Under the pieces are notes generated by a model. That model did not search any database. It was given only the letters and a program-made list of their open reading frames with translations, and was not told where the DNA came from. From NCBI GenBank assembly GCA_028293745.1, contig JAQGOF010000191.1, positions 1 through 64,000 on the forward strand: a DNA stretch of 64,000 nt. Direction: 5' to 3'. How positions within the stretch are numbered: position 1 is the first letter of the stretch; every line of letters begins with the position of its first letter. This document shows, one piece after another, positions 7,753-24,372 of this stretch. The position numbers and the translations under genes are program-made. The stretch is from Gammaproteobacteria bacterium. Lineage in GTDB: Bacteria > Pseudomonadota > Gammaproteobacteria > Steroidobacterales > Steroidobacteraceae.

Positions 7753-7779
7753 AGCACTTCTCGCCGCGGGAGAGAACTC

Positions 7780-8793: not shown

Positions 8794-8795
8794 GC

Positions 8796-11027
8796 ATGCA
8801 GCAGACAACGAGAGCAATGCGCAAAACCGGACTCGAGGTGCTCGGCGATCGGCCTTGGGGAAGTCATTTCTGCGTCTTCTATGAGACGGATGAGGATCTC
8901 ATCGAGATGCTGGTTCCCTATTTCAAGGCCGGCGTCGAGAACAACGAGTTGTGCTTTTGGGTGCTATCCGATTCCCTGACCGAAGAGGGCGCATGGCGCG
9001 CGCTGAACCGAGATATTCCCGATGCCGACCGCCCGCTGATTCGAAGGAGTATCGAATTCATGCGGAGCGAGGACTGCTACCTGAAACAAGGCATTTTCGA
9101 TCTCAATCGCGTTACGGAGGAATGGGGCGAGCGGCTGAAGCGGGCCCTCGACGCAGGTTTCGACGGCATCAGGGTCAGCGGCTATGCAGGCTGGCCCCAG
9201 ACGCGGGAATGGCCGAATTTCTGGAAATACGAAGGGAGCCTCAACGAATCGATCGTCGATCAGCGGATGATCGTGCTCTGCACTTATTCGCTGATCGGAA
9301 GCACCGGTTTCGACATTCTCGACGTGGCGCATACTCATCAATGCGCCGTATCACGACGCATCGGCAGCTGGCAGATCATCGAAACCGCCGCGCTAAAGGA
9401 AGCGAAAGAGGAGATCGAAAGACTGAACGAGGAGCTGGAGCAGCGCGTGATCGATCGCACGCGCGCCTTACGGCGCAGCGAGGCCTACTTGGCTGAAGCG
9501 CAGAGCTTGAGCCACACGGGTAGTTTCGGCTGGAATGCCGCGAGCGGAAAGATCTGGTTTTCGGCTGAGACCTTTCGGATCTTTGAATTTGATCGCGCCA
9601 ATCCACCTGACCTGGCGCGAATAGTTCAACAAACGCATCCGCAAGACAGAGCTTTCCTGGAGCAAACACTCGATCGCGCACGACACGAGAAGACGGATTT
9701 TGATCTGGAGTGTCGGTTGCTGATGCCCGATGGTTCAGTCAAGCATCTCCAGGTGGTGGCCCGTGCCATGGTGGACGACTCGGGCCACGTCGAGTTTGTC
9801 GGGGCGGTGATGGACATCACTCGGCGCAGACGCGCCGAGGAGGTGCAACGAGTGCAGGAGAGCGCGCGCGAAGAGATGCAGCGGCAGCTACAGCAGGCGG
9901 CCAAAATGGAGGCGATCGGGCGGCTTGCCGGTGGTATCGCCCACGACTTCAACAACATCCTGGGCGCGATCCTCGGTTACGGCGAGCTCGCGCAGGACAA
10001 CCTGAGTGAAGGCAGCGCCGCACGCCGCCAGGTCGATCAGGTCATGCACGCCGGCGCACGTGCAAAGGGACTCGTCGACAACATCCTCGCATTCAGCCGC
10101 AGCGGGGTAAGCGAGCGCGTGCCGCTACATCTGCAGTCGGTCGTCGAGGAGACCCTCGAGCTGCTCGCACCGTCGCTGCCTGTTGAGGTGCGCCTCGAGA
10201 GGCGACTCAATGCGGTCGACACGGCGGTGTTGGGCGACGCGACACAGTTCCACCAGGTCACAATGAACCTCTGTACGAATGCGGTGCAGGCGATGGACCA
10301 GGGCGGCCTGCTCACAGTAACGCTTGATCGTGTAACAGTGGGCGAGCGCCACTTACTTTCGCACGGGACGCTCTCTGCCGGCCACTATGTGCGCCTCACG
10401 GTCAGCGACACCGGCAGCGGCATCCGGCCCGCGGTGCTCGAGCGCATGTTCGATCCGTTCTTCACCACCAAGCGGGTCGGCGACGGTACAGGCCTTGGCC
10501 TTGCCCTGGTGCACGGCATCGTCGCCGACTTCGGTGGGACAATCGACGTGGAGACGCAGATAGATGCAGGCACCACCTTCACGATCTGGCTACCGGCCGC
10601 TGACGAGACGCCAAAGCTCTGGGCCGAGTCCCCGGGCGACGTGCCGCGAGGGCACGGTGAGACGGTGATGATCGTGGACGATGAGCGCCCGCTGGTTGCG
10701 CTCGCTGAAGAGACGCTCGCCAGGCTTGGGTACGAGCCGGTGGGGTTTGATTCGAGTGTCGCCGCGTTGCAGGCGTTTCGCGCGGAACCACAGCGCTTCG
10801 ACCTCGTGCTGACCGACGAGACGATGCCCGATCTCACGGGGACCGAGCTTGCGCGCGAGATCCGGCAGTTGCGACCAAACATTTCGATCATTCTCATGAG
10901 CGGTTACAGCGACACAGAGCTGAGCGAACGCGCACAGGCCGCAGGGATCATCGACGTGCTCCGCAAACCGCTCGCCCGCCGCGATATCGCTGAGCCGGTT
11001 GCGCGCGCGCTGCGTGCTGGTAGCTAA
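8796..11027 (+). CDS. Hybrid sensor histidine kinase with MEDS, PAS and receiver domains
   Basis: The 743-residue protein has, in order, an N-terminal MEDS (DcmR-type sensory) domain at about 17-195, a coiled coil at about 200-225, a PAS domain at about 230-345, a dimerisation/phospho-acceptor helix with His383 (IAHDFNNIL), a HATPase domain (G1 box VSDTGSGI, then GTGLGLALVHG) and a C-terminal receiver with phospho-acceptor Asp674 (LTDETMPD). MEDS domains occur in regulators of C1 and halomethane metabolism. No membrane segment is seen, so it is a cytoplasmic sensor. ATG 8796 follows the beta-subunit stop by 2 bp, with GAGGCGCGAGGG before it, so it is probably co-transcribed and may sense a monooxygenase substrate or product (inference). 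No DNA-binding partner is encoded nearby. Confidence 0.88.
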   Translation: MQQTTRAMRKTGLEVLGDRPWGSHFCVFYETDEDLIEMLVPYFKAGVENNELCFWVLSDSLTEEGAWRALNRDIPDADRPLIRRSIEFMRSEDCYLKQGIFDLNRVTEEWGERLKRALDAGFDGIRVSGYAGWPQTREWPNFWKYEGSLNESIVDQRMIVLCTYSLIGSTGFDILDVAHTHQCAVSRRIGSWQIIETAALKEAKEEIERLNEELEQRVIDRTRALRRSEAYLAEAQSLSHTGSFGWNAASGKIWFSAETFRIFEFDRANPPDLARIVQQTHPQDRAFLEQTLDRARHEKTDFDLECRLLMPDGSVKHLQVVARAMVDDSGHVEFVGAVMDITRRRRAEEVQRVQESAREEMQRQLQQAAKMEAIGRLAGGIAHDFNNILGAILGYGELAQDNLSEGSAARRQVDQVMHAGARAKGLVDNILAFSRSGVSERVPLHLQSVVEETLELLAPSLPVEVRLERRLNAVDTAVLGDATQFHQVTMNLCTNAVQAMDQGGLLTVTLDRVTVGERHLLSHGTLSAGHYVRLTVSDTGSGIRPAVLERMFDPFFTTKRVGDGTGLGLALVHGIVADFGGTIDVETQIDAGTTFTIWLPAADETPKLWAESPGDVPRGHGETVMIVDDERPLVALAEETLARLGYEPVGFDSSVAALQAFRAEPQRFDLVLTDETMPDLTGTELAREIRQLRPNISIILMSGYSDTELSERAQAAGIIDVLRKPLARRDIAEPVARALRAGS

Positions 11028-11060: not shown

Positions 11061-11486
11061 TCACGGTTTGAGCTGCGCGCGAATCTCACCGGGCTTGTGC
11101 TCGGCGCTGTGGACATTCACATAGAGATTCCCGCCCTTGAAGCTTGCGTACTGCTCGTCGGTCAGTTTGGAGCCGGGCGGCACGGTCCACGTGCCATCAG
11201 CACCCTTGGTCAAGGTGATGATTGGTGGGCCGCTCTGACCTGGGGCTCCAACGTGGATATGCGCGGCAGTGCCATCGATCCCGGAGGTCTTGATGACGCC
11301 ACTGACGGACTTGTCCTTGGCGACCTTGAGAGTGCCGGTGGCCGATGCCGAGGTGGTCACCGGGGGCGTCTCCTCGGTCCCTGTCAAGCTCAACTTGACG
11401 TCCTTTGCCATAGCGGACTCGGCACCCAGGGCCAATGCAATCGTTGCGAGAAGTGCCGCGCGCGAGCGGGCGAAATCAGTGTTCAT
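11061..11486 (-). CDS. Exported CHRD-domain protein
   Basis: The 141-residue product has a signal peptide (about 1-27, ending SAMAKD) and one CHRD domain: LSLTGTEETPPV, a central AHIHVGAPGQSGPP with the HIH pair, and a terminal YVNVHSAEHKPGEIRAQL. CHRD domains are beta-sandwich modules named after chordin; their bacterial role is unknown. It is the last gene of a minus-strand run of cytochrome and DUF1501/DUF1549 genes, 25 bp after a c-type cytochrome, and likely periplasmic. It ends 33 bp from the convergent kinase gene; no clear terminator is visible between them. Confidence 0.85.
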   Translation of the reverse strand: MNTDFARSRAALLATIALALGAESAMAKDVKLSLTGTEETPPVTTSASATGTLKVAKDKSVSGVIKTSGIDGTAAHIHVGAPGQSGPPIITLTKGADGTWTVPPGSKLTDEQYASFKGGNLYVNVHSAEHKPGEIRAQLKP

Positions 11487-11511
11487 TGTCTGCGTCTCCG
11501 GTTGTTACAGG

Positions 11512-11955
11512 TCAATCCAGTGGTTTGTAATCCAAGTGACAGGCACGGCAGGCTCTGGCAATGCTGACAGCTGCCTTGGAAGCGGTCGCGAAGTCCTTGG
11601 CGGCGACGGACCTGACCACGGTGGCGGCCAATTCCCTGCCTTCCCTGGAGAGCTTCAGGGCGTTGTCGGCGCTACCTCTTCGAGAGAAGTAAGCCTCCAT
11701 CGAGCCATACAACTCGCCGATTTCCCGGGCGTCCGCACTTGCGGCATTGCCGTCGCCGGCTGCGAGGTTGCGTTGTACGCTCTGGCTCCTTCGATCGATT
11801 CTCTGCATCCACTCATCGAAATCCAGCACGCTCTGCCCGAAGGCTACCTCCGCCGCCCCGAATAGGGCAAGTGCCGCGAGAGTAACCGCGGTACACATGC
11901 CGAGCCGATCGCGCAATGCGCGACGGCGCTCATATGTCAGGAGGCTTATAGGCAT
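11512..11955 (-). CDS. Exported c'-like cytochrome, single C-terminal CRACH haem motif
   Basis: This 147-residue protein has a signal peptide (VTLAALALFGAAEVAFGQ), a helical body and one haem-binding CxxCH motif at the C terminus (CRACH, residues 136-140). The layout, helical bundle with haem attached near the end, is that of cytochrome c' / c556 proteins. The ATG at 11955 overlaps the preceding gene by 26 bp and supplies the basic n-region (ERRRALR); an internal ATG at 11898 is possible but would lack it. It resembles the gene just upstream, suggesting tandem duplication. Probably a periplasmic electron carrier for the neighbouring DUF1549/DUF1501 proteins (inference from context). Confidence 0.8.
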   Translation of the reverse strand: MPISLLTYERRRALRDRLGMCTAVTLAALALFGAAEVAFGQSVLDFDEWMQRIDRRSQSVQRNLAAGDGNAASADAREIGELYGSMEAYFSRRGSADNALKLSREGRELAATVVRSVAAKDFATASKAAVSIARACRACHLDYKPLD

Positions 11956-12343
11956 CGTGGCAAGCGCGGCAGGTCCTCACCAGGGAATCGTATGTAGTGA
12001 GCGATGTTTCAAAGTCGCTCGACTGTGCCGATCTGGCCACGGCATCCGCGAGGTCCTGCCCTTGCTTGGCCCATTTCACCGCGTCTTCGACATTGCCCTT
12101 CTTCGTAAAATAATCCTGCGCCCATTTGAGGCCATCGCGGATCGACTGGGCGTCGGCTGCCACGGACGTTGGGTCCCGCGTGGCAATGTTGGAGTCCAGT
12201 CTCTTCATCGTGTCATCCATTTCCCGCATGACATCATCGTTGAAGTCGGTCAGGTCGAGGCTGACGGTGGCGCGAACCAGCGGGCCCGTCAACCCCACCG
12301 CAATACCGAGTGCGCCCAGAACGGCAGTCCTCTTTCTGCGCAT
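11930..12343 (-). CDS. Exported c'-like cytochrome, single C-terminal CRACH haem motif
   Basis: The 137-residue product has a short signal peptide (RRKRTAVLGALGIAVGLTG), a helical region rich in charged residues and a CRACH haem site at 125-129 followed by DAYKPPDI. The end is nearly the same as that of the next gene (CRACHLDYKPLD), so the two are paralogues. It begins 3 bp after the DUF1501 gene and its 3' end overlaps the next cytochrome by 26 bp, so the genes are almost surely one transcript. Role inferred as periplasmic electron transfer. Confidence 0.82.
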   Translation of the reverse strand: MRRKRTAVLGALGIAVGLTGPLVRATVSLDLTDFNDDVMREMDDTMKRLDSNIATRDPTSVAADAQSIRDGLKWAQDYFTKKGNVEDAVKWAKQGQDLADAVARSAQSSDFETSLTTYDSLVRTCRACHDAYKPPDI

Positions 12344-12346
12344 GAT

Positions 12347-13789
12347 CTACGTAATGATTTCCTTCACGACCTGGCCATACACCGTGGTGGCGCGCTCCGA
12401 GCGGCCCTGGTACAGGTACGTCAGCTTGCGGTGGTCCAAGCCCAGCTGATTGAGAATGGTCGCCTGGATGTCATACGTATCGGTGACTCCGCTCACCGCG
12501 CGCAAGCCGATTTCGTCAGTCGCACCGTAGGTGCCGGGCTTGATGCCACCGCCTGCGATCCAGGTCGTATAGCCCCAGGGGTTGTGATCCCGCCCGTCAC
12601 CCGTCTGACCATAGGGCGTGCGTCCGAATTCGGCGGTCCATACGACGAGCGTCGTATCCAGCAAGCCCCGTGCTTTCAGGTCGGCAAGCAGACCGGCAAT
12701 TGGCCGGTCAACCTGCCTGCACATCACCGAGTGATTCTTTTCGATCTCGTGGTGGGCATCCCAGCTATCGACGCTGTTGTCCGGTGCACCAGAGATAACA
12801 TGGATGAAGCGCACGTTGCGCTCGACCAGGCGGCGAGCCCGTAACAGGGCTGTGGCATACTCGCGCGTTGCGACAGTTGAGGTGTCGACGATGCCGTAGA
12901 GTTCCTTGGTGGCAGCCGTCTCTTTCGACAAGTCCACTGCCTCCGGCGCAGTCTTCTGCATGCGGTAGGCCAGATCGTACGAGCGGCTGCGTGCCTCGAG
13001 CTCGCCGTCCCCGGCATGCAGCACCTGTTCCTGGTGATCGTTCAGCTGCTTCAACAAATCCAGCGTGCCGCGCTGCTCCGCAGCCGTGACCACTGCCGGC
13101 TTGTCCATATATAACATCGGCGAATCGCCGGGCCGGAACGTCGTGCCTTGATACGTTGCCGGCAGGAAGCCCGCGCTCCAGATCGTCGCTCCGCGACCGC
13201 CGCCGGCGCTGCCCGTCCCAGTAGGCAACACTACGAATGATGGCAAATCGGGGTTGGCCGAGCCTAGCCCGTAGGTCACCCAGGAGCCCAGCGCGGGACG
13301 GCCCGGGACGAGGCCGCTTGTGTGTAGTTTGAGCGAGGAGATGACGTGAGTGCTGCCCTCGGTCTTGCAACCTTTGAGGAAAGCGATCTGATCGACCTGG
13401 CCTGCGAGATTCGGCAGCAAGTCCGACACCCACGCGCCGGTCTGTCCATGTTGCTTCCACTCGCGCTTCGTGGCGTAGAGCGCGCCAACGCCACCATCAG
13501 TCGCGGTCTTGAGATTCGTGCGGAAGGAATCCGGCAGGGGCCGGCCGTGCAGGCGGACGAGCGCCGGTTTGTAGTCGAACAGATCGAGAGAGCTGGGCGC
13601 CCCCGCCATATGCAGCCAGATCACAGACTTGGCCTTCGGTGTGAAGTGCGGCGCCTTGGGCGCGAGTGGGTCTTCAGCGGCAGCCGTCGCCGGAGCGCTG
13701 GAGAGCAGTCCCCCTGCAACCGACAGCGCACCCAGGCCGTATCCGGTGTTGAGTAGAAATTCCCGTCGTGTTTTCACCCTGGTACCCAT
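12347..13789 (-). CDS. Tat-exported DUF1501 protein (alkaline-phosphatase/sulfatase-like fold)
   Basis: The 480-residue protein has a twin-arginine signal (TRREFLLNTGYG, residues 7-18) and a DUF1501 domain over most of its length. Motifs include SVIWLHMAGAPSSLDLFDYKP at the start of the domain and VVWTAEFGRTPYGQTGDGRDHNPWG near residues 393-417. DUF1501 is abundant in Planctomycetes, usually beside DUF1549/DUF1553 cytochrome proteins, and is related to the alkaline phosphatase superfamily; its reaction is unknown. Tat export suggests that it folds, perhaps with a metal, before export. It sits 39 bp after the DUF1549 gene and 3 bp before a c-type cytochrome. GAGGG precedes the start. Confidence 0.88.
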   Translation of the reverse strand: MGTRVKTRREFLLNTGYGLGALSVAGGLLSSAPATAAAEDPLAPKAPHFTPKAKSVIWLHMAGAPSSLDLFDYKPALVRLHGRPLPDSFRTNLKTATDGGVGALYATKREWKQHGQTGAWVSDLLPNLAGQVDQIAFLKGCKTEGSTHVISSLKLHTSGLVPGRPALGSWVTYGLGSANPDLPSFVVLPTGTGSAGGGRGATIWSAGFLPATYQGTTFRPGDSPMLYMDKPAVVTAAEQRGTLDLLKQLNDHQEQVLHAGDGELEARSRSYDLAYRMQKTAPEAVDLSKETAATKELYGIVDTSTVATREYATALLRARRLVERNVRFIHVISGAPDNSVDSWDAHHEIEKNHSVMCRQVDRPIAGLLADLKARGLLDTTLVVWTAEFGRTPYGQTGDGRDHNPWGYTTWIAGGGIKPGTYGATDEIGLRAVSGVTDTYDIQATILNQLGLDHRKLTYLYQGRSERATTVYGQVVKEIIT

Positions 13790-13828
13790 GTCATGCCCTC
13801 AATTCGAGTGTTTAGTCCGCAATGGAAA

Positions 13829-16360
13829 TCAGAACCGGTAGCTGAACTCGTTGGAATTGGCCACCGCGTGCACCAGGTCAACGAAGGCCGCCGCGCGCGC
13901 CGGATTGAGCTTCTGCTTCTGCGCCTTCGCGCCACCGACGGCTGCCGTTACTGAGGCATCGCCAGTATCCTCCTCCGGGGATTGGGCCTTCGCGAGCTTC
14001 TCCTGCCGCTTATCCAGATACTCCACGAGTGCAACCCGCTCGAACCGATCGGCGGACCGGCCGTACAGTGCTTTGTAGAGCTTGTCGGCCTGGGCATACA
14101 CCTCGACTGGCACCCCGTAGCCTTCGGGCGCGGCAACTTTCTTGCCCTGCGCCAACTGCTCCTGTGTCACCTTCTCCTGCTTGTCGAGAAACGCCTCCAG
14201 CGTCCGCCTCTCAGATGTATCGGGCGAACGGCCAAACAGGATCTGGTACAGCCGCTCGAGCTGCGCCGATTCGTCGTGGCCGGCCTCCTGCAGCACGCGC
14301 GCCGCCAGGGCTTCTGACCATTGATACACGAGGTCGCCGTTGATTAGCGCGAGTGCCTGCGACGGGGTCGTGGTCACATCGCGTCGGCTATGAACAGAGT
14401 TTGGATTAGCCATGTCGAATGCGTCCAGCAACGGATACGCGGTGTTGCGGCGTACGAAGACGTATACGCTGCGCCGATTCTGGTCGTGAGGATTCTCCGA
14501 CACGGGCCAGGCATTCGGATTGGCAGCATTCACGCCGAAATTGGCAGGTACCGGCGGGAACACCGCAGGTCCCCCGAGCTTGTCCTCCAGCAGACCCGAG
14601 GCAAGGAGCAACGAGTCCCGAATCTCCTCCGCATCCAGGCGCTGCCGTGGAAACGCCCACAGCAAGCGGTTGGTAGGATCAATGGCTTCGGCGTCCGGGC
14701 GCGCAGCCGACGATTGCCTATAGACGCTTGACAACAACAGGCGCCGCTGCAGGCTCTTGATGCTCCAATGGTCCTGGTGGACGAAAGTGTCTGCCAGGTA
14801 GTCCAACAGCTCGGGATTGACGGGTTTGTCGCCCATCTTGCCGAAGTCGCTCACGCTATCGACGATTCCGTGACCGAAATACTGCGCCCACACCCGATTC
14901 ACGAAGACCCGCGCGGTCAAGGGATTTCCCGGACTTGCAATCCAATTCGCGACTGCCGTGCGGCGCCCGGATGAGTTGGCTGTCGGCGTAATGTGCGGCT
15001 GCTCGCCATTTGCCAACGCCGCCGGGAATCCTGGCTGGACTTCCTCGAGCAACCGGTCATAGATACCTGTGGCAAGAACGTGCGTGGGCGGCGCTTCGGC
15101 ACCCAGCTCGAATATGGTCGACATGTAGCCAGGGTCCTTCGGCTTCAGGGCATCGAATGCCTTGAGTTGGCTCTTGAGCTCCTGGTACTTCGCGTACGCG
15201 TCCTTGTTCTTGGTCTTCAACTCCCTCTCGGCGTTGCGGGTCCGTCCTGACAAGGTCCACAGGTTGCGATGGTAGATCCAGCGGTCGTACGCACTGCGCT
15301 CCCCTTCCGGCTTCTCTATCGAGGCCCGGGTCTGCGGCACGAACCCCTGCAACCGGTCGGCTTCCAGCTTGTCAATCACCGGTTTCAGGAGCGCGTCCAT
15401 CTGCTCGCGGATTTCGTGCGTCGCCTCGTTGTAGTGGGCGAGGTGCTGCTGATAATCGGTCAACACGGTGGCGGTCGCCGCTGGCACATCATCTCGAGCG
15501 CTGGCATTCGCGAAGAACGCCTGGAACTGGAAGTACTCCTTCTGGGAAATCTTGTCGAACTTGTGGTTGTGGCAGTTGGCGCAGCCCACCGTGGTGGCCA
15601 GGAACACCGACCCTGTGGTGTTCGTCAGATCGACGGCGATCTCCTGTTTCTTCAGATTCAGATCGCGCGCGTTGATCTCATCAGGATAACTGCGCAGGAA
15701 CCCGGTGGCGATCAAAGCCTCCTGATCGTTCGGCCACAACTCATCGCCCGCCAGCTGCTCTTTGATGAAGCGGTCGTAGGGCTTGTCTTCGTTGAATGCG
15801 CGTATTACGTAGTCCCGATACCGCCACATGTTGGGGCGGGTGCCATCGGCGTTGTAACCGTCGCTGTCAGCATACCGGGCAAGGTCCAGCCAGCGGCGTC
15901 CCCAGCGTTCGCCATAGTGGGGAGATGCCAACAGCCGATCCACCAGCTTCTCGTACGCTTTCGACGAGCGGTCGTTGACGAAAGACTTTACGTCCTCGGG
16001 TGTGGGGATCAGGCCCCAGGTGTCCAATGTTGCGCGGCGTATGAACGTGGCGCGATCGGCGTCGCCGGAGGGCTCGAGCTTGCTCCCTTCCAGCCGCGCC
16101 AACACGAAGGCATCGATGGGCGTGCGAACCCATTTGTTACCCTGAACCTGCGGTATCGTTTGGCTCTTCACGGGCTGATAGGACCATAGCACTGGGGCCG
16201 AGCCGGGGGGCACTACACCCGTCGAGGCAGGAGCAGATGAGGCGGCCGGCGCCGCAGGCGCTGACTCCTCGCCGGCAGCCGCGGAGACGGTCGTCAATAC
16301 AGCGGTCGCCAGCGCGGCCGTGAAGCCCCACCACGCGCCAGGAAAACTACGTCTATTCAT
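13829..16360 (-). CDS. Exported DUF1549/DUF1553 (PSCyt2/PSD1) haem protein
   Basis: The 843-residue protein has a signal peptide (about 1-29), a Pro/Ala-rich linker (30-55), a DUF1549 domain (about 78-285) and a DUF1553 domain (about 465-800). A c-type haem site CANCH lies at 260-264, just where planctomycete PSCyt2 domains carry CxxCH before HDHK/HNHK. It lacks the extra N-terminal PSCyt1 cytochrome module of many planctomycete members. Function of the family is unknown; the haem and its pairing with DUF1501 suggest redox chemistry on an extracytoplasmic substrate. GGGAG stands 8 bp before the ATG. The C terminus (EFSYRF) is the usual family ending. Confidence 0.88.
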   Translation of the reverse strand: MNRRSFPGAWWGFTAALATAVLTTVSAAAGEESAPAAPAASSAPASTGVVPPGSAPVLWSYQPVKSQTIPQVQGNKWVRTPIDAFVLARLEGSKLEPSGDADRATFIRRATLDTWGLIPTPEDVKSFVNDRSSKAYEKLVDRLLASPHYGERWGRRWLDLARYADSDGYNADGTRPNMWRYRDYVIRAFNEDKPYDRFIKEQLAGDELWPNDQEALIATGFLRSYPDEINARDLNLKKQEIAVDLTNTTGSVFLATTVGCANCHNHKFDKISQKEYFQFQAFFANASARDDVPAATATVLTDYQQHLAHYNEATHEIREQMDALLKPVIDKLEADRLQGFVPQTRASIEKPEGERSAYDRWIYHRNLWTLSGRTRNAERELKTKNKDAYAKYQELKSQLKAFDALKPKDPGYMSTIFELGAEAPPTHVLATGIYDRLLEEVQPGFPAALANGEQPHITPTANSSGRRTAVANWIASPGNPLTARVFVNRVWAQYFGHGIVDSVSDFGKMGDKPVNPELLDYLADTFVHQDHWSIKSLQRRLLLSSVYRQSSAARPDAEAIDPTNRLLWAFPRQRLDAEEIRDSLLLASGLLEDKLGGPAVFPPVPANFGVNAANPNAWPVSENPHDQNRRSVYVFVRRNTAYPLLDAFDMANPNSVHSRRDVTTTPSQALALINGDLVYQWSEALAARVLQEAGHDESAQLERLYQILFGRSPDTSERRTLEAFLDKQEKVTQEQLAQGKKVAAPEGYGVPVEVYAQADKLYKALYGRSADRFERVALVEYLDKRQEKLAKAQSPEEDTGDASVTAAVGGAKAQKQKLNPARAAAFVDLVHAVANSNEFSYRF

Positions 16361-16451
16361 AGAGACACTCCCACGCCAGCCAGCTCGTGCTGGCCAGCTT
16401 TGCGGAACGAAGAATAGTCAAGCAGCAGGTAATAAAGTGGTTACAGCCTAT

Positions 16452-16475
16452 GGCATCTGCTCATGAGCTGATGCC
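16452..16475. repeat. 24-bp near-perfect palindrome in the cytochrome b / DUF1549 gap
   Basis: GGCATC at 16452 and GATGCC at 16470 flank a self-complementary GCTCATGAGC core, giving a 24-bp dyad broken by only one mismatched pair. It lies in the 159-bp gap between the cytochrome b gene and the DUF1549 gene, 45 bp after the former's stop. No T-run follows directly, so it may be an operator, a rho-independent-like pause or an mRNA-processing hairpin rather than a plain terminator. Confidence 0.45.
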
Positions 16476-16519
16476 AAACGACTGACTGCGCGTCCTGCGC
16501 CGCCGCAACCTGTTTCATC

Positions 16520-17209
16520 CTAGGCGACGTACCACACGAGCAGGGCGGCCAGAGCGATGCCGAGCACCGCGTGCCATCGCGGCGCAAACTCGATACGCGG
16601 CAGGGGCCCGTGGCTCCAGCCTTTCGACCCGGTAATCATCGGGCGGATGAGGTTGTCGCGCTTGAAGACCCAATAAAGCAGCACCGCTACGATGTGCAGG
16701 AGGATGAGCACTTTCAACACATCGAACCCGATCCGGTGCAGCCGTGCGCATGCGCGGCCGGTCTCGAAAGTCACCCAGTGCGACAGCGGTCCCGACTCCA
16801 ATCCATCCACATCCACGCAGAAGAGCCCGAGTGTCACCTGCCCCAGCAACAGGCCCAAGAGCGCTAACACGCTCAGGGCGCCCAACGGGTTGTGACCGGG
16901 CGCCGCTTTGAGTGCCCGCGACCGCAGATAACGCCAGATTGAGCGTGGTCCTTTGACGAAGTGCGCGAAACGCGCTGTTGTGCTGCCGAACACGCCCCAA
17001 TACAGTCGAAATGCCAGTACTCCCAACAGCGCATACCCGCTGTAACGGTGATAGTTCATGCGGTGATGGCTGGCGGTCCACCAGGACAGGCCCACCAGCG
17101 CAACCAACAGCCAATGCACCAGCCGGGTCGCGCCATCCCACACCCGCAATACCGGCCGGGTGCCGACTTGAAGCACCACGCGCGATTGAGTTCCCCACAC
17201 GGCGCTCAT
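16520..17209 (-). CDS. b-type cytochrome, Ni,Fe-hydrogenase b / cytochrome b561 type
   Basis: The 229-residue protein has four to five hydrophobic helices: about 28-46 (LVHWLLVALVGLSWWT), 56-74, 108-130, 158-180 and 208-227. Histidines suited to ligate haem b occur in the first (TRLVHWLL), second (NYHRYSGY) and fourth helices (LLHIVAVLLYW). This is the cytochrome_b_N domain of membrane subunits that pass electrons between quinol and periplasmic c-type cytochromes. It begins 3 bp after a c'-like cytochrome gene, so the two probably form an electron-transfer pair. Partner enzyme in the membrane unknown. Confidence 0.85.
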   Translation of the reverse strand: MSAVWGTQSRVVLQVGTRPVLRVWDGATRLVHWLLVALVGLSWWTASHHRMNYHRYSGYALLGVLAFRLYWGVFGSTTARFAHFVKGPRSIWRYLRSRALKAAPGHNPLGALSVLALLGLLLGQVTLGLFCVDVDGLESGPLSHWVTFETGRACARLHRIGFDVLKVLILLHIVAVLLYWVFKRDNLIRPMITGSKGWSHGPLPRIEFAPRWHAVLGIALAALLVWYVA

Positions 17210-17212
17210 GCA

Positions 17213-17707
17213 TCATTCCTTCTTCACACGGTATTTGTCGTGGCAACCCTTGCAGCTCTGACCCAGAGAGGCGGCAGCGTCCTTCCATGCGGACGCGTCG
17301 ATGCTGTCACCCAAATGAGTCCACTTGTCCGCTTCGCGGATAAACGTCTCCTGCTCGGCCGCGAATCCCGCTGCATCCGCCCACACTTCGGGCTTGGCAT
17401 CGGTCTTGACGCCGGACTCGGGGCCTGTGCCTGCAGGAAACCACGTGCCGATACCACCAGCCGCCCGCGTGATATCCGCGGCTGCGGCCTTGATCTTGGC
17501 GCTGTCGGGAGACGCGTTGCGCAGCTCGTCTCGAATAACCTTGAAAGCCGCACCCAGGCTCTTCAATCCCTGCTGACGGGCTTTAATGACTTCGGCAGCC
17601 GACTGGCTCTGTGCGTTCGTAACGGTCGCGAACGTGGCAGCCGCAACCGCGATCGCCACGGCCAGCCTCGCCGCCCGCGAACGAATTGTCCTGCCTTGGG
17701 ATTGCAT
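17213..17707 (-). CDS. Exported cytochrome c' family protein (CKGCH)
   Basis: The 164-residue protein has a signal peptide ending near TVTNAQS, a four-helix-bundle-like body and a single haem motif CKGCH at 152-156 followed by DKYRVKKE, the typical ending of cytochrome c'. An earlier in-frame start (17761) would overlap the upstream receptor gene; ATG 17707 has the strong Shine-Dalgarno GGGAGGAGGG just before it and begins 20 bp after the receptor stop. It lies between a TonB-dependent receptor and a b-type cytochrome. Likely periplasmic electron carrier. Confidence 0.88.
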   Translation of the reverse strand: MQSQGRTIRSRAARLAVAIAVAAATFATVTNAQSQSAAEVIKARQQGLKSLGAAFKVIRDELRNASPDSAKIKAAAADITRAAGGIGTWFPAGTGPESGVKTDAKPEVWADAAGFAAEQETFIREADKWTHLGDSIDASAWKDAAASLGQSCKGCHDKYRVKKE

Positions 17708-17727
17708 TGTGCGCCCTCCTCCCGTTC

Positions 17728-20493
17728 TCACAGCTTGCCGCTCGCCACGAAACCAATCCAACGCGATACCGCCGGTGTGTAGCTGTTCCAGGTCTGACTC
17801 AGATACGTGCGGTCGTTGAACGCATTCTTCACGAGAATTCCCGCGTCGAACTTGTTATCCATGCGGCCGAAGCCAATTTCGATATCGGTGATGCTGGAAG
17901 CGGGGACCCACCCGTAGGAAGACAGTGAGTTATCGGAATTGAAGCGGCTGTTGTAGGCAGTATTGAAACTCAGGCGGAGCGCCTTGTTGTCCCACACTGG
18001 ATAGCGGTAATCGACACCGATATTGGCCGTGAACTTCGACGCACCCGGAAGTGTCTGCCCGCTGAGGTCCCGGTAGGGCGGCGCGGCCGTATAGCCGTTT
18101 TCCACCGGCTGCGCGGAGTTTGGAAAGTCTTTGTAGAACGCGTCCGTGTACGCGCCCGAGAAGCGGATCGTGGCATTACGGATGCCTGCATAGATTGCAT
18201 CTACTTCCACTCCCCGTGATTCCACCTTGGGTACGTTTCCGGTGGCAGATGTGTACGCAGTGGCCGGCGTCACACCGTTCTGTATGTTGAGGTTGGTTGT
18301 GTACTGATCGAGGATGCGGACCGCTTGCTGATAGTTCTTGATTTTGGTCAGATAGAAGTCAACGTTCAGGATCAGCGTTCTGTCCAACAACGAAGATTTG
18401 AGTCCAATCTCGTAGGAAGTGTTCTTTTCCGGCGCGACGAGATAGGAAACTCCGTTGACGAGCTGCGAGATACCCGCCTTCTCGCCGTACTGGTATGACA
18501 CGTACGCCGTTTCGGAGTCGCTGAACTTGTAACGGGGACTCACGACGAACGCAGGCTGCGTTTTCTTGAACGGCTGAGCTACCGTTGGATAGAACAGAAC
18601 GCCGACCTGTGAGAGTCGGATCGCCTTCGCATCGGCGACCTGGCGCTGCTGCGCGGCCGTGAGGCTCCCATAGGCCGCACCCGGAACCGCGGCGATGGGT
18701 ACACCGAAGTACTTGTTGGCCGCAAGGTCGGCGAGACTCAGCTGGGTGGCCGAGTTGGCAGCGGCGGTCAGGGCGCCCGTGGTGGCGTTGGAGGCAAACC
18801 CTCCGAGCGCGACGCCGTTGATTGATACAGGATTGAGCTCGGCCCCGGCCCCATTGTCCGTGATCAGCGAATCGGCGGTGGTTTCGCGGTCCTCGCGGGT
18901 CACGCGCACACCCGTGGTGACCGTGAACTTGCGCGTCAGGTGCCAGTCAGCCTGGCCAAAGGCTGCATAGCTCTTGTTGCGGATCAACTGCAAGCCCGCC
19001 GGTGCGTTGAAGTCCATGGCCAGACCGTCGAGCGAGTTGCGCAACAGGTAGCGGCCACCGCTCACACTGCCGTCCGGATTCACCGCCACGTCGAGTCTTC
19101 CGTACTGCTGCGGGGTTGCAAACCACGCGCCCGCGTCACCGCCCCAGGCTCTGCGGTATTCGGAGTCATTGGTCATCTTGAAAAAATACAGGCCGGTCTG
19201 ATAGTCGACGAAGCCGCCGGTCTGCGAGCTCAAGCGCAGCTCCTGGCTGAGTTGCTTGTAGTGATTCAGGAAGCCGCCGGCGTTCTTGTAGATGTCGAAG
19301 GGCGTACCTTCATCGTTGATCGCGTTGAAGCGATATTCCTCGTAACCGGTGATCGAGGTCAGAATCTGATTGCCGAGAGTCCAATTCAGCTCGGCTGAGG
19401 CGCCGTCGCTGCCGGTGTAGAGCGGATGCTGGTAGTCGCTGTCGACATTGTTCAACCCTGCTCCATAGAGATAGGTCTTCGCGTAGCTGTAACTTGATTG
19501 CTGTGTGAACCAAGGCCGTGCCAGCCGGACGGCCGGGTCAGTTGAAAGCGTGTTCGTGGACCCGTTGGCATAAAGGGCAGGCGTCGGTGTATTGATCGCC
19601 CGTCCGTTCGTCGTTTCCCCTCCGACCGGAGTCAGGTTGTACGAAAAGCGCGCGGTGAAGTCCGGAGTAGGCGTCAGCAGAAACTGCACTCGGCCGGTCA
19701 CCCGGTCCTTGTTCTGGTAAGTGTCATCAGGGTTGTATAGATTGCCGACGTCACCCTTGCCTTTTTCCACGGATAGCGTGCCGCGCCAGGCCAGCAGATC
19801 ATCGATGACCGGACCGCCGCCTGCCGCATGACCGATGACGGTGCCCAGCTGACCGACCGTGACAGAGTACTCGGCGCCTGGCGTGAAGGACGGCCGTCGA
19901 GTATTGATGCTGAGTACTCCCAGTGTGGCGTTCTTGCCCTGGAGTGTCCCTTGGGGACCGCGGGCCAACTCTACGGTATCGATATCGGTAAAGTCGTAAC
20001 TGGAAATGAGGGCGTTATAGGCATAGTTGACGCCATCCACCACCACACCCACGCTGGGGTCTTGTGCCTCTGTCTGCCCTTGTTTGCCGATGCCGCGGAT
20101 GGAGAGGCTGAATGTTCGCTGATTGCCGAGGTTCCAGGACAGATTGCCGACGCGCTTGGTGATAGAGCTGATATCGAACGAATCGAGCCGATCGAGCTCC
20201 GTGCCGGTGACGACCGAAACAGATACCGGGACATCCTGCAGCGGCTCGAGTCGGTTGCGGGTATGGACCACGATCTTGCTCAGGTCGGTGACCGGAGGGG
20301 CTGACTGGCCGGCGCCGGCGTCCTCACTGGCACTGGCCGCGTTATCACTGGCAGCGGACGGTGCATTTGCCGCCTTGTTCGGGCTCTCGGCCTCGGACTG
20401 CACAGTGCCGAGCAGCAGGACGCTGCCCAGCAGGGCCGCCGAGCTCCCTCGCAGGAAGGAGCGACGACGGGACATGAGATTCGGAACGGACAT
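17728..20493 (-). CDS. TonB-dependent outer-membrane receptor
   Basis: The 921-residue protein has a plug domain after about residue 75 (KIVVHTRNRLEPLQDVPVSV as TonB-box-like region, then SIRGIGKQG and VELARGPQGTLQGKN) and a long beta-barrel ending WIGFVASGKL. I start at ATG 20493, preceded by GGGAG; the longer frame to 20565 lacks such a site. The N terminus (MSRRRSFLRG followed by a hydrophobic stretch and a Glu/Ala cleavage region) resembles a twin-arginine signal, unusual for a barrel protein. Genes for ExbD, ExbB and TonB lie immediately upstream, and cytochromes downstream. The ligand is not readable from sequence. Confidence 0.88.
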   Translation of the reverse strand: MSVPNLMSRRRSFLRGSSAALLGSVLLLGTVQSEAESPNKAANAPSAASDNAASASEDAGAGQSAPPVTDLSKIVVHTRNRLEPLQDVPVSVSVVTGTELDRLDSFDISSITKRVGNLSWNLGNQRTFSLSIRGIGKQGQTEAQDPSVGVVVDGVNYAYNALISSYDFTDIDTVELARGPQGTLQGKNATLGVLSINTRRPSFTPGAEYSVTVGQLGTVIGHAAGGGPVIDDLLAWRGTLSVEKGKGDVGNLYNPDDTYQNKDRVTGRVQFLLTPTPDFTARFSYNLTPVGGETTNGRAINTPTPALYANGSTNTLSTDPAVRLARPWFTQQSSYSYAKTYLYGAGLNNVDSDYQHPLYTGSDGASAELNWTLGNQILTSITGYEEYRFNAINDEGTPFDIYKNAGGFLNHYKQLSQELRLSSQTGGFVDYQTGLYFFKMTNDSEYRRAWGGDAGAWFATPQQYGRLDVAVNPDGSVSGGRYLLRNSLDGLAMDFNAPAGLQLIRNKSYAAFGQADWHLTRKFTVTTGVRVTREDRETTADSLITDNGAGAELNPVSINGVALGGFASNATTGALTAAANSATQLSLADLAANKYFGVPIAAVPGAAYGSLTAAQQRQVADAKAIRLSQVGVLFYPTVAQPFKKTQPAFVVSPRYKFSDSETAYVSYQYGEKAGISQLVNGVSYLVAPEKNTSYEIGLKSSLLDRTLILNVDFYLTKIKNYQQAVRILDQYTTNLNIQNGVTPATAYTSATGNVPKVESRGVEVDAIYAGIRNATIRFSGAYTDAFYKDFPNSAQPVENGYTAAPPYRDLSGQTLPGASKFTANIGVDYRYPVWDNKALRLSFNTAYNSRFNSDNSLSSYGWVPASSITDIEIGFGRMDNKFDAGILVKNAFNDRTYLSQTWNSYTPAVSRWIGFVASGKL

Positions 20494-20615
20494 CAAGACT
20501 CTCCCGGAGAAAATGGTGCAGCGTTTTAAGGGGCGCTCTCGCGAACGCCCGGATTTATTTCGCAAGGACTTCGCAGGTCGGATCGGGCCTGTCGATCGGA
20601 TCGGCCGGCTAACCG

Positions 20616-21020
20616 CTATTGCGTGTCGGTCAATATGGCCACGCGTGCAACACCTGCGTGCTCGATGGCGGCCATGACCTTCGCGACGGGCCCGTATGGA
20701 ACCCGCTCATCAGCGCGCAGGTGCAGCGACAGATCGGGGTTTGCGCTCTTGAGCCCCACCAACTGCCGTTCGAGGTCGGCCCTCGCGACCTCCGTGTTGT
20801 TCAAAAATACCTTGCCCTCGCCGTCCACCGTCACCGTGACGGCCTTTTGCTCATCCGGCGGCGTCGTCGTCACGGTCTTGGGCAAATTGACATGCACGGC
20901 GTTGGTCAGGACGGGAATGGTGATGACGAATGCGACGAGCAGCACGAGCATTACATCCACGAGGGGCGTAATGTTGATATCGCTCAACTCGCTGTCATCT
21001 TCCTGTGTTGCAAAGGCCAT
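20616..21020 (-). CDS. exbD: ExbD/TolR-family proton-channel subunit
   Basis: The 134-residue protein has one membrane helix (about 16-38) preceded by the family signature SDINITPLVDVMLVLLVAF with the essential membrane Asp, and a periplasmic domain after it. It energises TonB together with ExbB. The ATG at 21020 (MAFATQEDD) is chosen because upstream codons to 21119 lack family similarity and overlap the exbB gene. It begins 25 bp after exbB. Confidence 0.92.
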   Translation of the reverse strand: MAFATQEDDSELSDINITPLVDVMLVLLVAFVITIPVLTNAVHVNLPKTVTTTPPDEQKAVTVTVDGEGKVFLNNTEVARADLERQLVGLKSANPDLSLHLRADERVPYGPVAKVMAAIEHAGVARVAILTDTQ

Positions 21021-21045
21021 GAAATCTGCTCCGCTTTGGTACCGA

Positions 21046-21822
21046 TCAGGCCGACTTGCCGCCGAGCAGGACGGAGGGCACGGACTCCCGGTCCCTGCCT
21101 CGTTCGGCGCGTCCTTCACGAATCTGCGTGCGCGGGTCTTCCACTGAGCGCACGCCGCGCTCGATGCGGAAGGTGGCGCGCTGCGCCAGATTCAGGAAAT
21201 CGTGCGCAAAGTCCTCGTATCCGCCCAGCGCGGACTTCAGCCGGCGTAGATAGAAGTTGTAGGCAAGTACGGCGGGGATGGCCACCGCTATACCGATTCC
21301 AGTGGCAATGAGCGCCTCGCCGATAGGCCCCGCTACGACATCGATCGAGGCGTTGCCGTTCTTGCTGATGTCGTGCATCGCACTCATGATTCCCCACACC
21401 GTGCCGAACAAGCCGACGAACGGCGCAGTGCTACCAATGCTCGCGAGCACTGCCAGGCCGGCATCCAGCGTGCGCCTCTCGCGCTTGAGCTGTTGGGCGA
21501 GATTGCGCTGCAACTGCTCGTGGCGGTCCCAACTATGCTGCAGGTCGTGCTCTTCGTGGTGAGAGGCCGCGCTGAGCGCGCTGAACCCGGCGATCGCGAT
21601 GCGCCCGAGCGCGCTCGAGCCAACTGCCTTGTCCATGGAGAGATCCGCAGCAGCCTGAAGATTGGGCGCGCTCCAGAACTGTTTTCCGAACCGCCGGTTG
21701 CCGCGCGCGTTGCGCAGCAATTGCACTCCCTTCACGAGAATCAGTGCCCAGGTGGCAATAGAGAATGCTCCGAGCGTCCACAACGTGACGGCGACAGCGG
21801 GAACGGCGGTAGTGTTGATCAT
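21046..21822 (-). CDS. exbB: ExbB/TolQ/MotA-family proton-channel protein
   Basis: The 258-residue protein has a first membrane helix at about 10-30, a cytoplasmic loop, and two long helices containing LASIGSTAPFVGLFGTVWGIM and GEALIATGIGIAVAIPAVLAYN, the hallmark ExbB segments. ATG 21822 (MINTTAVPAV) is the family-like start. It follows the tonB gene by 46 bp and precedes exbD, completing a private Ton motor for the adjacent receptor. Confidence 0.92.
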   Translation of the reverse strand: MINTTAVPAVAVTLWTLGAFSIATWALILVKGVQLLRNARGNRRFGKQFWSAPNLQAAADLSMDKAVGSSALGRIAIAGFSALSAASHHEEHDLQHSWDRHEQLQRNLAQQLKRERRTLDAGLAVLASIGSTAPFVGLFGTVWGIMSAMHDISKNGNASIDVVAGPIGEALIATGIGIAVAIPAVLAYNFYLRRLKSALGGYEDFAHDFLNLAQRATFRIERGVRSVEDPRTQIREGRAERGRDRESVPSVLLGGKSA

Positions 21823-21868
21823 GATGTGAAGCTCGTGAGCCTTGACTAGCGATGAATGATGATTGAGA

Positions 21869-22621
21869 TCAGGTGTCGAGCTTGAACTCGATGGGCACCG
21901 TGGCCCAGCCGTCGATGGGCGTGGCGCCGCGCTTCGACGGAGTGAACTGCCAGGTACGCACGGTAGCCTTGGCCTCTTCGTCCAACAGCTTGAAGCCGCT
22001 GGACTTCTGTACTTCCACCGCATCGACCTGGCCGGTGCTCAACACGCGCACCCGCAGCATCACCGTGCCCTGCCAACCATTGCGCGCGGCCGTGCTGGGG
22101 TATTGCGGCGGTGGATTGTTGAGATACCCGGCACGGCCGAAGGGTGCCGTTACCGTTTCCGGCTCGGGAGGCGGAGCGGGCGCGGCGACCGACGCTACGG
22201 CGACAGGCGCTTGCGCTGGCGCACTCTCGACACTCGGGGTATCAGGCACCGCTGTTTGAATCTGCGGCAGTACCTGTCTCTTCGCCAGCGGCTTCGGAGG
22301 CGGCGGTTTCGGCGGCTCGATCTTCGGCGGTAGGGGCTTTGGCGGCCTCACCAGCTGCACTTCAACCTCATGCTTTCGCGGCGGCACTGTCGAAACAGAC
22401 ACATGGTGCGTGGCATACCAGACGATCCCGCCGTGTATCGAGATGGCCAGTGCTGCAAGTAAACCGGGCAATACCCACCGGGACAAGCCGTCCCGCGTGG
22501 GTGGCACCGTGAAGCGGGCAACTGCCACTTCCCTCCAGGGCACCGTGACGGTCGTCAGCTTGCGACGAGGTGCTCCAACCCAGTGGCTATTGAAATTGTA
22601 TGCGAGCGCAAAGTTACTCAT
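21869..22621 (-). CDS. tonB: TonB energy transducer
   Basis: The 250-residue product has a single N-terminal membrane anchor (about 49-68, LPGLLAALAISIHGGIVWY), a proline-rich periplasmic spacer (RPPKPLPPKIEPPKPPPPKP) and a C-terminal TonB domain (YLNNPPPQYPSTAARNGWQG ... PIEFKLDT). It couples the proton-motive force via ExbB/ExbD to outer-membrane receptors. I use ATG 22621; a GTG at 22693 in the same frame is an alternative. First gene of the tonB-exbB-exbD-receptor-cytochrome run. Confidence 0.9.
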   Translation of the reverse strand: MSNFALAYNFNSHWVGAPRRKLTTVTVPWREVAVARFTVPPTRDGLSRWVLPGLLAALAISIHGGIVWYATHHVSVSTVPPRKHEVEVQLVRPPKPLPPKIEPPKPPPPKPLAKRQVLPQIQTAVPDTPSVESAPAQAPVAVASVAAPAPPPEPETVTAPFGRAGYLNNPPPQYPSTAARNGWQGTVMLRVRVLSTGQVDAVEVQKSSGFKLLDEEAKATVRTWQFTPSKRGATPIDGWATVPIEFKLDT

Positions 22622-22860: not shown

Positions 22861-23334
22861 ATGAGAAAAACGGTGATCGCTGCGCTGCTGACGCTATCCG
22901 TGGTGAGCGCGTTTGCTCAAGAGGGCGGCCGCACACCGCAAGCTGCCTCCGTCAAGACGCCAGACTCGCGAGCTCACGTGCTCACGCGGGAGGAGTTGGA
23001 CAAACTGCTCGCTCGACCGCAGGATCTGCTGGTGATCGACGTACGCCGTCCAGACGAGGTGAGCAAGATCGGGGGTCTGCCGGTTTATCTGAGCATCCAG
23101 CTCAATGACCTGGAAAAGAGCCTTGCGTGGATTCCAAGGGGACGCACCATCATCACCGTCTCGAATCATGCCAAGCGGGCTGGCACAGCCGCGGACCTGC
23201 TGGCGAGCAAGGGATTCAAAGTGGCTGGCGCGGCAGGCGTGCAGACCTACGAGCAGGAAGGCGGAAAGCTGACCAAGATCGTGCCGCCCCCAACGCCGAG
23301 CACCGCGAACGCTGCGCCCGCGCCTGGCCCGTAG
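22861..23334 (+). CDS. Exported rhodanese-fold protein lacking the catalytic cysteine
   Basis: The 157-residue protein has a signal peptide (about 1-19, VVSAFAQE) and a rhodanese domain (LTREELDKLL ... LLVIDVRRPDEV ... GFKVAGAAGVQTYEQEGG). The active-site loop, normally CxxGxR, reads SNHAKR, so the sulfur-accepting Cys is absent and thiosulfate sulfurtransferase activity is not expected. A binding or regulatory role is more likely. The tail is Pro/Ala-rich. GAGGGCG precedes the ATG. It converges on a LysR-type gene 63 bp downstream. Confidence 0.82.
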   Translation: MRKTVIAALLTLSVVSAFAQEGGRTPQAASVKTPDSRAHVLTREELDKLLARPQDLLVIDVRRPDEVSKIGGLPVYLSIQLNDLEKSLAWIPRGRTIITVSNHAKRAGTAADLLASKGFKVAGAAGVQTYEQEGGKLTKIVPPPTPSTANAAPAPGP

Positions 23335-23397: not shown

Positions 23398-24372
23398 TCA
23401 TCGAATCGGCAGCTGTAAATTCGCGAACATCGCGTTTACTTCTTCCTGCGTCTCGCACGCGGCGGCGCGGTCGACCAGACGACGGGTGAGATGCGGTGCC
23501 ATGAAGTGCAGAAAATCGTACATATAGCGGCGTAGCAATCCGCCGCGCGCGAATCCGATCCACGTCGTGTGAACCGGGAACAGGTGCGCCGCCTCAATGG
23601 ATACCAGGTCAGCGTCGTCTTTTGGGTCCAACGCAATTTCCGCGACGATGCCCACCCCGAGACCCAGGCGAACGTACGTCTTGATGACGTCGGAGTCCCG
23701 GGCCGTCAGCGCAACCTTTGGCCGCAAGCCGGCCATCGCGAATGTTTCGTGCAATGAAGAAGGCCCCGTAAAGCTGAATACATAGGTGACGAGCGGATAG
23801 GCAGCCAACTCCTCTACTCCGGGTCTGGTCACGCGCGCCAATGGGTGATTCGCCGGCACGATGATGCGTCGATGCCATTGGTAGCATGGCAACAGCACGT
23901 GCTTGCGAAACAAATCCTGCGAGCCGGTTGCAATGGCGAAATCGATGCGATCCAGCTCGGCCATCTCCGCAAGATGCTCGGAGGTGCCCTGATGCAGATG
24001 AAACTCCACGTTCGGATACTTCTCGCGAAATTGCCGGATCACCGCAGGCAACACGTACCGTGCCTGGGTGTGGGTCGTACCGATGGAAAGCGCGCCTTGA
24101 CCCTCGTCCTTGAATTCCTCGGACACACCCTTGATGTTTTGAGCCTCGCGCAACAGCCTCAGCGCATACATGACCACGCGTTCCCCGGCAGGCGTGATTT
24201 TGGTGAACGCACGTCCATTGCGCACGAAAATGCTTACGCCCAGCTCCTCCTCCAGCAGCTTGAGTTGCTTGCTGACGGCGGGCTGCGTCGTATGCAGCTT
24301 TGCAGCGGCGGCGGTGAGGTTCAGATCGTTCTGGGCAACCGCCGCCAGAAAGCGCAATTGCTGAAGTTTCAT
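23398..24372 (-). CDS. LysR-type regulator of the CysB/Cbl group
   Basis: The 324-residue protein has an N-terminal winged helix-turn-helix (1-60; MKLQQLRFLAAVAQNDLNLT and TTQPAVSKQLKLLEEELG) and a periplasmic-binding-protein-like effector domain. The CysB-group sequence TTHTQARYVLP appears near residue 99, and GTSEHLAEM and TYVFSFTGPSS also fit that group. CysB proteins sense acetylserine or sulfate-type ligands and control sulfur acquisition. The neighbours here (rhodanese-fold protein, giant surface protein) give no direct sulfur-operon link. It is divergent from the giant gene across 545 bp. Confidence 0.87.
   Translation of the reverse strand: MKLQQLRFLAAVAQNDLNLTAAAAKLHTTQPAVSKQLKLLEEELGVSIFVRNGRAFTKITPAGERVVMYALRLLREAQNIKGVSEEFKDEGQGALSIGTTHTQARYVLPAVIRQFREKYPNVEFHLHQGTSEHLAEMAELDRIDFAIATGSQDLFRKHVLLPCYQWHRRIIVPANHPLARVTRPGVEELAAYPLVTYVFSFTGPSSLHETFAMAGLRPKVALTARDSDVIKTYVRLGLGVGIVAEIALDPKDDADLVSIEAAHLFPVHTTWIGFARGGLLRRYMYDFLHFMAPHLTRRLVDRAAACETQEEVNAMFANLQLPIR

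Follow-up and report, generated by a model that had tools for sequence, protein, structure and literature searches.

Proteins that combine the PSCyt2 (DUF1549) and PSD1 (DUF1553) domains, together with their partner genes, are abundant in planctomycete and related genomes, with 48, 35 and 45 PSD1 matches in three such genomes and 4 in a fourth, and the reaction they catalyze is not known. For Verrucomicrobia, PMC5615132 describes some PSCyt genes as carrying carbohydrate-binding modules, with functions that seem to mirror those of glycoside hydrolases, and notes that sulfatase genes often adjoin them. A second point of reference is the sulfate-starvation response of pseudomonads, in which the Pseudomonas aeruginosa tonB2-exbB-exbD genes (PA0197-99) are strongly upregulated, as stated in PMC3377617, and in which SfnR, going by reference titles in PMC8234197, is a CysB-regulated sigma-54 activator of organosulfur genes. 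Here we examine a 64,000-nucleotide stretch (the window) of contig JAQGOF010000191.1, assigned to the Steroidobacteraceae (assembly GCA_028293745.1), and within it a row of eleven minus-strand open reading frames (ORFs) at 11061-22621 comprising, in the direction of transcription, tonB, exbB, exbD, a TonB-dependent receptor, a cytochrome c', a cytochrome b561-type protein and, after a 159-bp gap, a DUF1549/DUF1553 protein, a DUF1501 protein, two c'-like cytochromes and a CHRD-domain protein. The neighbourhood of this row points to sulfur acquisition. We propose, at what we judge to be even chances, that it is a sulfur-scavenging locus in which a TonB-fed periplasmic redox system would release sulfur from an organic compound when sulfur is scarce.

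The first-pass annotation of this DNA ended at tonB and named no substrate class; two genes beyond that point are now added. The row abuts a rhodanese-like gene (22861-23334, plus strand; PF00581, 25.5 bits; signal-like start), followed by a gene for CysB, the sulfur-assimilation regulator (23398-24372, minus strand), which scores 438.5 bits against NCBIfam NF009326 (equivalog cut-off 436) and has CysB as its best PDB match (E 8.4e-104). Below, loci are labelled L### and genomes G###, the source genome being G000. Within the family, the DUF1549 clade containing the window protein is represented by eight loci in five genomes, namely the window, L042, L043, L044, L045+L046, L048+L167, L049 and L050, where two loci split by contig ends were each counted once (L045/L046 on matching gene parts, L048/L167 on a 507-bp overlap at 99%). 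L042 is neighboured by a sigma-54 activator lacking a sensor domain, a DsbD-like protein, an AhpC/TSA redoxin and a rhodanese-like gene; L043 by a sigma-54 activator at 75% to that of L042; and L046 by two sigma-54 activators (one partly called), a rhodanese-like gene and Ton genes. L050 holds, within 8.8 kb, DUF1501-DUF1549, a redoxin, a sigma-54 activator, a rhodanese-like gene, YghX, CysB (431.3 bits, just under the cut-off of 436) and a sulfate-binding protein. Overall, a sulfur-regulon marker was found at 5 of the 8 clade loci and at none of 15 loci bearing other DUF1549 types in the family (L047, L051-L059 and L162-L166; p 0.0017), a contrast to be read in light of the control contigs being in many cases short (from 3.2 kb) and in several cases pieces of one genome, G137, and one that is weakened by the markers having been picked after the pattern was first seen and by the loci being related to one another.

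The rhodanese-like gene also tracks the clade across genomes. It was identified in 11 of 150 family genomes, including the source genome, and is present in all five clade genomes versus 6 of the remaining 145 (p 8e-7); G106 carries it at a separate site (L108), where it is again accompanied by a sigma-54 activator and a sulfate-binding protein. Where no clade DUF1549 gene adjoins it, its partners vary, including a sulfate-binding protein (L102, L105, L107 and L108), TauE (L105), a PF03601 transporter (L102 and L104), sigma-54 activators (L102, L103 and L108) and CysB (L102 and L103), with YghX alone of these markers present in L106. In L102 and L103, a receptor of the window family (38% and 44%, respectively) also stands beside the rhodanese-like gene, sigma-54 activator and CysB, such that this receptor family also occurs in sulfur neighbourhoods lacking the clade DUF1549 gene. 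All eleven rhodanese-like proteins share a VSNH(A/S/T)xR motif (VSNHAKR in the window) with Ser in place of the catalytic Cys, at what we take to be the Cys-loop position, which places them outside the definition of an active rhodanese. Members of this family (window, L042, L046, L050 and L102-L108) occur mostly near sulfur or sigma-54 genes and are perhaps sensor or binding proteins. Also observed in sulfur loci without DUF1549 (L102, L103 and L104) is a DUF6152 protein, in some cases with SGIW-type and DUF6644-like proteins; in Acidobacteriota (L033, L153 and L154) such a protein lies just after DUF1501 or its c'-like neighbour, the assignments being based partly on sequence likeness and not on Pfam.

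Sequences resembling sigma-54 promoters occur in the relatives. Scanning from -250 to +120 of called starts for YTGGCACG-N4-TTGCW (GG and GC required, at least 11 of 13 positions), we identified -24/-12 sites at 11 of 28 target genes (DUF1549, receptor, rhodanese-like and sulfate-binding) versus 5 of the 149 non-target ORFs across the 16 loci scanned, with a p-value of 6e-7 that is optimistic given the relatedness of the sequences. The five control matches are found next to target genes or ahead of DUF6152-type neighbours. Three of the six DUF1549 genes scanned carry a site, a fourth (L042, 12046; 12/13) having been missed through a start called too early, and L167, outside the scan count, has one at 5728 (12/13). 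Sites at threshold also occur in 12 stretches that carry other DUF1549 types, but by eye none is on the right strand within ~250 bp before DUF1549. In L042, separate -24/-12-like sites precede the receptor (14980) and DUF1549 (12046), and the two halves of the cluster may therefore possess separate promoters under one control. Inverted repeats resembling CTGCTGC-N4-GCAGCAG were also noted 49-176 bp upstream of -24/-12-like sites (L046 9442, L103 6703, L102 13683, L050 3452 and L104 2249); 33 were found versus ~8 expected from a crude two-base-block shuffle, many of them inside genes. In the relatives, these repeats could possibly represent the enhancer of the sigma-54 activator.

Comparison of the clade loci further indicates that the content of the gene set is conserved, that its order is shuffled and that the linkage is real. 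All eight have DUF1549 next to DUF1501, and a receptor of the window family (42-58% identity in the sister loci) lies beside the pair in seven, upstream, downstream or convergent to it, the contig of the eighth (L050) ending inside DUF1501. In 5 of 8 assessable loci (the window, L042, L043, L046 and, from Acidobacteriota, L033), the gene immediately after DUF1501 encodes a c'-like protein; this is not the case in L044, L048 and L049. Both b561 and a true cytochrome c' recur in L042, where a CHRD homologue (61%) also lies near the cluster on the opposite strand. Genes for tonB, exbB and exbD recur in one sister locus only, L046, and the window type of ExbB was detected in just 2 of 150 family genomes (E<=1e-45), both times within this locus. 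The association of DUF1549/DUF1501 with a receptor, a dedicated Ton motor and cytochromes made in the first-pass annotation is thus borne out by the parts that recur, as is the order of the pair and often of its c'-like gene; a fixed succession from DUF1549 through DUF1501 and cytochrome to Ton genes is not what the sister loci display. Outside the family, the pair was present in 17 of 18 Acidobacteriota loci (one of them, L157, from the genome of L033), the other, L146, ending after DUF1549; 7 have an Oar-type receptor nearby, and none of the 18 yielded a c'-like gene. Two sister loci also contain a metallo-beta-lactamase-fold protein right after the receptor (L046, 6379-7815; L049, 10683-12182). 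That of L046 matches the SDS (sodium dodecyl sulfate)-type alkylsulfatase PSdsA at E 2.4e-4 over 61 residues, with beta-lactamases scoring higher.

The DUF1549/DUF1553 protein (13829-16360, minus strand) possesses both expected Pfam domains above their curated cut-offs (PSCyt2 288.9 and PSD1 299.7 bits), a signal-like start and a single CxxCH motif (C260/C263/H264) that 69 of 71 aligned rows retain, with gaps in the remaining two. It has no Pfam match to PSCyt1 (PF07635), a domain common in many members of the family and not defining of it. Other DUF1549 types in the Steroidobacteraceae (L052-L056) are longer and carry a second, N-terminal CxxCH, some of them near PSCyt1 cytochromes and b561; a homologue of the window b561 occurs in the PSCyt1-type loci L053-L056. 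In a tree of 71 rows, in which L075 duplicates L033 and L157 duplicates L079, the window protein groups with proteins from G129 (two genes), G106, G121 (two genes), G085 and the Bryobacterales metagenome-assembled genome (MAG) represented by L033, forming one clade of 8 distinct genes with a support of 100. The 404-residue fragment of L048 is absent from the tree and was placed by identity, its other end, L167, sharing 77% identity with the L042 protein across 494 residues. Sister rows to this clade are Acidobacteriota (support for the joint group, 99), among which relatives at E<=1e-100 were found in 129 of 200 genomes of the order searched. A transfer between the Steroidobacteraceae group and Acidobacteriota is likely. 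The earlier label of "Planctomycete-type" calls for refinement, as the protein belongs to a clade without PSCyt1 and with acidobacterial sisters. Within the family, PF07587 (DUF1553) exceeds its cut-off in 14 of 150 genomes including the source genome, which has one copy. Searching 369 genomes drawn evenly from the whole class with the DUF1549 protein (E<=1e-30) recovered one relative besides that of the source genome; as the family is thinly sampled there (in the part listed, two named members besides the source genome, neither a clade genome), this result sets no bound on the distribution of the protein.

The DUF1501 protein (12347-13789, minus strand; PF07394, 437.1 bits) begins 39 bp downstream of DUF1549 with a twin-arginine start (TRREFL), and its predicted export, like the haem motif of its neighbour, upholds what had been read from the sequence. 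By its AlphaFold model (mean predicted local distance difference test score, pLDDT, 67.5; predicted template modelling score 0.77; 11-row alignment), it is predicted to take the sulfatase/alkaline-phosphatase fold. Foldseek returned 53 PDB matches at E<=0.001, and all 50 of the 53 that were listed belong to this superfamily, among them LtaS/LtaP, choline, aryl and carrageenan sulfatases, sulfamidase, alkaline phosphatase, YejM and their kin, with template modelling (TM) scores that are low (0.18-0.34, query-normalised). A PDB sequence search with the DUF1501 profile gave weak matches to sulfatases (best E 0.026). Across 68 rows, H148 is conserved in 68/68, and among ungapped rows D344 in 65/65, H346 in 65/65, E387 in 64/64, D401 in 61/63 and H402 in 63/63, a pattern of acidic and His residues as expected for a candidate metal site. 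An hhalign comparison with a sulfatase aligned only 34 columns, with E387-F388 opposite Asp-Asn (probability 1.4). The DUF1549/DUF1553 model is all-helical (pLDDT 59.9, from a 12-row alignment), and four other protein models had mean pLDDT values of 43.5-49.4.

All eleven genes lie on the minus strand as first annotated and carry the Pfam domains expected of them, aside from one c'-like protein that scores under the cut-off. Upstream, tonB (21869-22621, with its ORF open to 22693 and a likely ATG at 22621) scores 82.5 bits for TonB_C and is 52% identical to that of L046; exbB (21046-21822) scores 112.4 bits for MotA_ExbB; and exbD (20616-21020, ORF open to 21119) scores 99.1 bits for ExbD and is 74% identical to that of L046. 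The receptor (17728-20493, ORF open to 20565) comprises Plug (50.8 bits) and TonB barrel (70.3 bits) domains, and is followed by a class II cytochrome c' with a CKGCH motif (17213-17707, ORF open to 17761; Cytochrom_C_2, 87.2 bits) and the b561-type membrane protein (16520-17209; PF01292, 71.6 bits). Downstream of DUF1501, the first c'-like cytochrome (11930-12343; CRACH) scores 27.8 bits against a cut-off of 26.5, and the second (11512-11955, with a start perhaps at 11898; CRACH near its C-terminus) 20.3 bits; the latter is nonetheless a clear paralogue of the first, and shares 45% identity across 108 residues with a protein of L033. The row ends with the CHRD-domain protein (11061-11486; 93.4 bits; signal-like start). 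Within the 159-bp gap preceding DUF1549 lies a 26-bp dyad (16451-16476, symmetric at 24 of 26 positions), which is not followed by a T-run on the minus strand and is absent from the terminator list. As a shared operator the dyad was rejected, as a similar site before tonB, at 22700, has 8 of 26 mismatches, near chance by estimate. Beyond the row, a 3022-residue protein (24918-33986, plus strand) starts beside CysB and has five DUF11 repeats in its first 694 residues, the part scanned.

Taken together, these observations are consistent with the earlier suggestion that an imported compound is acted on by a redox enzyme outside the cytoplasm, and we can outline how such a sulfur-scavenging system might operate. 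Sulfur limitation would be the trigger, acting here through CysB and in relatives also through the sensor-less sigma-54 activator. The receptor, driven by its own TonB-ExbB-ExbD, would bring an organosulfur compound into the periplasm, where the mono-haem DUF1549/DUF1553 protein and DUF1501 would form one enzyme unit. DUF1501 might contribute a hydrolase or lyase domain with a metal site, built on the sulfatase/alkaline-phosphatase fold, and the haem protein might carry out a one-electron redox step, with electrons passing through the c', c'-like and b561 cytochromes to or from the quinone pool, and the released sulfite or sulfate could then be taken up by the ordinary route. More tentatively, and with doubts outweighing confidence, the pair of DUF1501 and PSCyt2-PSD1 might constitute a previously unrecognised haem-assisted periplasmic desulfurising enzyme, combining a sulfatase-fold metal site with a c-type haem to act on an imported organosulfur substrate, served by c' and b561 electron carriers.

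A number of results weigh against the sulfur-scavenging proposal. Of the features of a sulfate-starvation regulon, an adjacent CysB is present in the window, and the sigma-54 activator and -24/-12 promoters are lacking there: no site at threshold precedes the window genes, and no close relative of the activator is encoded in the source genome (best match 43% over residues 45-372). For the window, the sulfur case thus depends on CysB, the adjoining rhodanese-like gene and relatedness to the other loci. CysB is its sole local sulfur regulator, one of three copies in the source genome at E<=1e-40, and its control of the operon is something we infer. Lacking the catalytic Cys, the rhodanese-like protein serves as a marker and gives no evidence of sulfur transfer. 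No sulfur markers were found on the stretches examined of three of the eight clade loci (L044, L048+L167 and L049), nor were those used found in L033 or the 18 other Acidobacteriota loci. Pfam scans of the window cluster gave no match to known desulfurising enzyme families, and the nucleophile of DUF1501 (formylglycine, Ser or Thr) could not be placed. For the DUF1549 protein, no fold match in the PDB was better than E 1.8, and a PDB sequence search with its profile gave nothing significant (best E 0.018). The host assignment may be affected by binning: it is possible that the contig is mis-binned or that G000 is a composite bin, a suspicion arising from the size of the source genome (6.9 Mb in 259 contigs, completeness 91.01, contamination 2.52) relative to its 13 sampled same-genus genomes (2.8-4.7 Mb), the absence of PF07587 from all 13 and the nearest DUF1549 relative being in another genus (G129). 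In that case the host would change and the locus would not.

Other readings of the cluster place its substrate outside sulfur nutrition. It seems unlikely, albeit by no means far-fetched, that the system oxidizes an imported sugar, oligosaccharide or other carbon source in the periplasm, with the sulfur neighbours reflecting a sulfated or incidental substrate. The carbohydrate links described for Verrucomicrobia agree with this, as do a sulfatase gene (PF00884, 170.7 bits) that immediately precedes DUF1549 in L036, as its homologue does in L038, and one 7 kb off in L037, an SGL (gluconolactonase-like) gene within the L042 cluster, the often multiple copies in Acidobacteriota genomes and the Oar-type receptors at 7 of 18 loci there. 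However, none of the eleven window proteins contains a carbohydrate-binding or glycoside hydrolase domain, and sigma-54 activators and CysB are not usual as regulators of sugar use. TonB, ExbB and ExbD with a receptor are typical of iron uptake, and a b561 protein could reduce a ferric complex, such that the cytochromes might instead reduce or release iron, haem or another redox-active metal; we give this little credence, as siderophore receptor models all scored under their cut-offs, leading us to reject iron uptake, no iron permease or Fur-type domain appeared among the proteins scanned, and CysB and a sulfate-binding protein lie beside relatives.

Local context offers two further alternatives. 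The window also encodes two PF02332 proteins of the methane/phenol/alkene hydroxylase type (5258-6838, the first, with a YHS domain, and 7780-8793, plus strand), followed by a MEDS-PAS-histidine kinase-receiver gene (8745-11027). Oxidation of an aromatic or xenobiotic compound together with these phenol/toluene-type monooxygenase genes (5258-8793) would suit their distance of 2-6 kb from the cluster and a quinone-type electron transfer, yet they lie on the other strand, beyond the sensor kinase gene, and tblastn found neither in 11 sister and related stretches, making this the most improbable of the explanations weighed. Nearly as improbable is that two or three unrelated operons are neighbours by chance. 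The split of the row by a gap with a dyad, the shuffled order in relatives and the L042 sites before both receptor and DUF1549, by which the halves can be transcribed separately, would favour this. Against it, overlapping content recurs in four other family genomes, including the rare ExbB type, and DUF1549-DUF1501-c' recurs with another type of receptor in one Acidobacteriota MAG.

Were the sulfur-scavenging proposal and the enzyme it invokes to hold, a haem-based, TonB-fed route would be added to the known oxygenase routes of organosulfur assimilation, and the planctomycete, verrucomicrobial and acidobacterial families would represent related enzymes for other, possibly sulfated, substrates. 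A member set in a small neighbourhood bearing a nutrient label, sulfur, also makes the function of the family testable by growth. The sulfur reading refines an existing hint by adding a regulator to it, since PMC5615132 had already reported sulfatases near PSCyt genes and proposed a role in carbohydrate use. An open-access literature search found no work linking DUF1501 or DUF1549 to sulfur assimilation. Compared with the alkaline-phosphatase superfamily (choline sulfatase, arylsulfatase and LtaS), DUF1501 would share the fold, by its model, and has invariant acidic and His residues; it differs in that no nucleophile could be placed in it and in the low TM-scores of a model of limited confidence. 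With the pseudomonad sulfate-starvation stimulon, the locus has in common CysB and dedicated Ton genes beside sulfur genes, likened to PA0197-99 by published induction and not by sequence, and its relatives share sensor-less sigma-54 activators with -24/-12-like sites, likened to SfnR by description. In place of the stimulon's oxygenases, no Sfn, Msu, Ssu or Tau kind being present among the ORFs scanned, it carries DUF1549/DUF1501 haem proteins. With the PSCyt2-PSD1 pairs of Planctomycetes and Verrucomicrobia, as described in PMC2754498 and PMC5615132, it shares the two domains, a conserved CxxCH and a neighbouring gene of an uncharacterised family. In contrast to those pairs, the window protein lacks PSCyt1 and belongs to a separate clade with an Acidobacteriota sister, and the pair stands beside a Ton motor, a cytochrome c' and b561 in a neighbourhood marked by CysB and, in relatives, by sigma-54.

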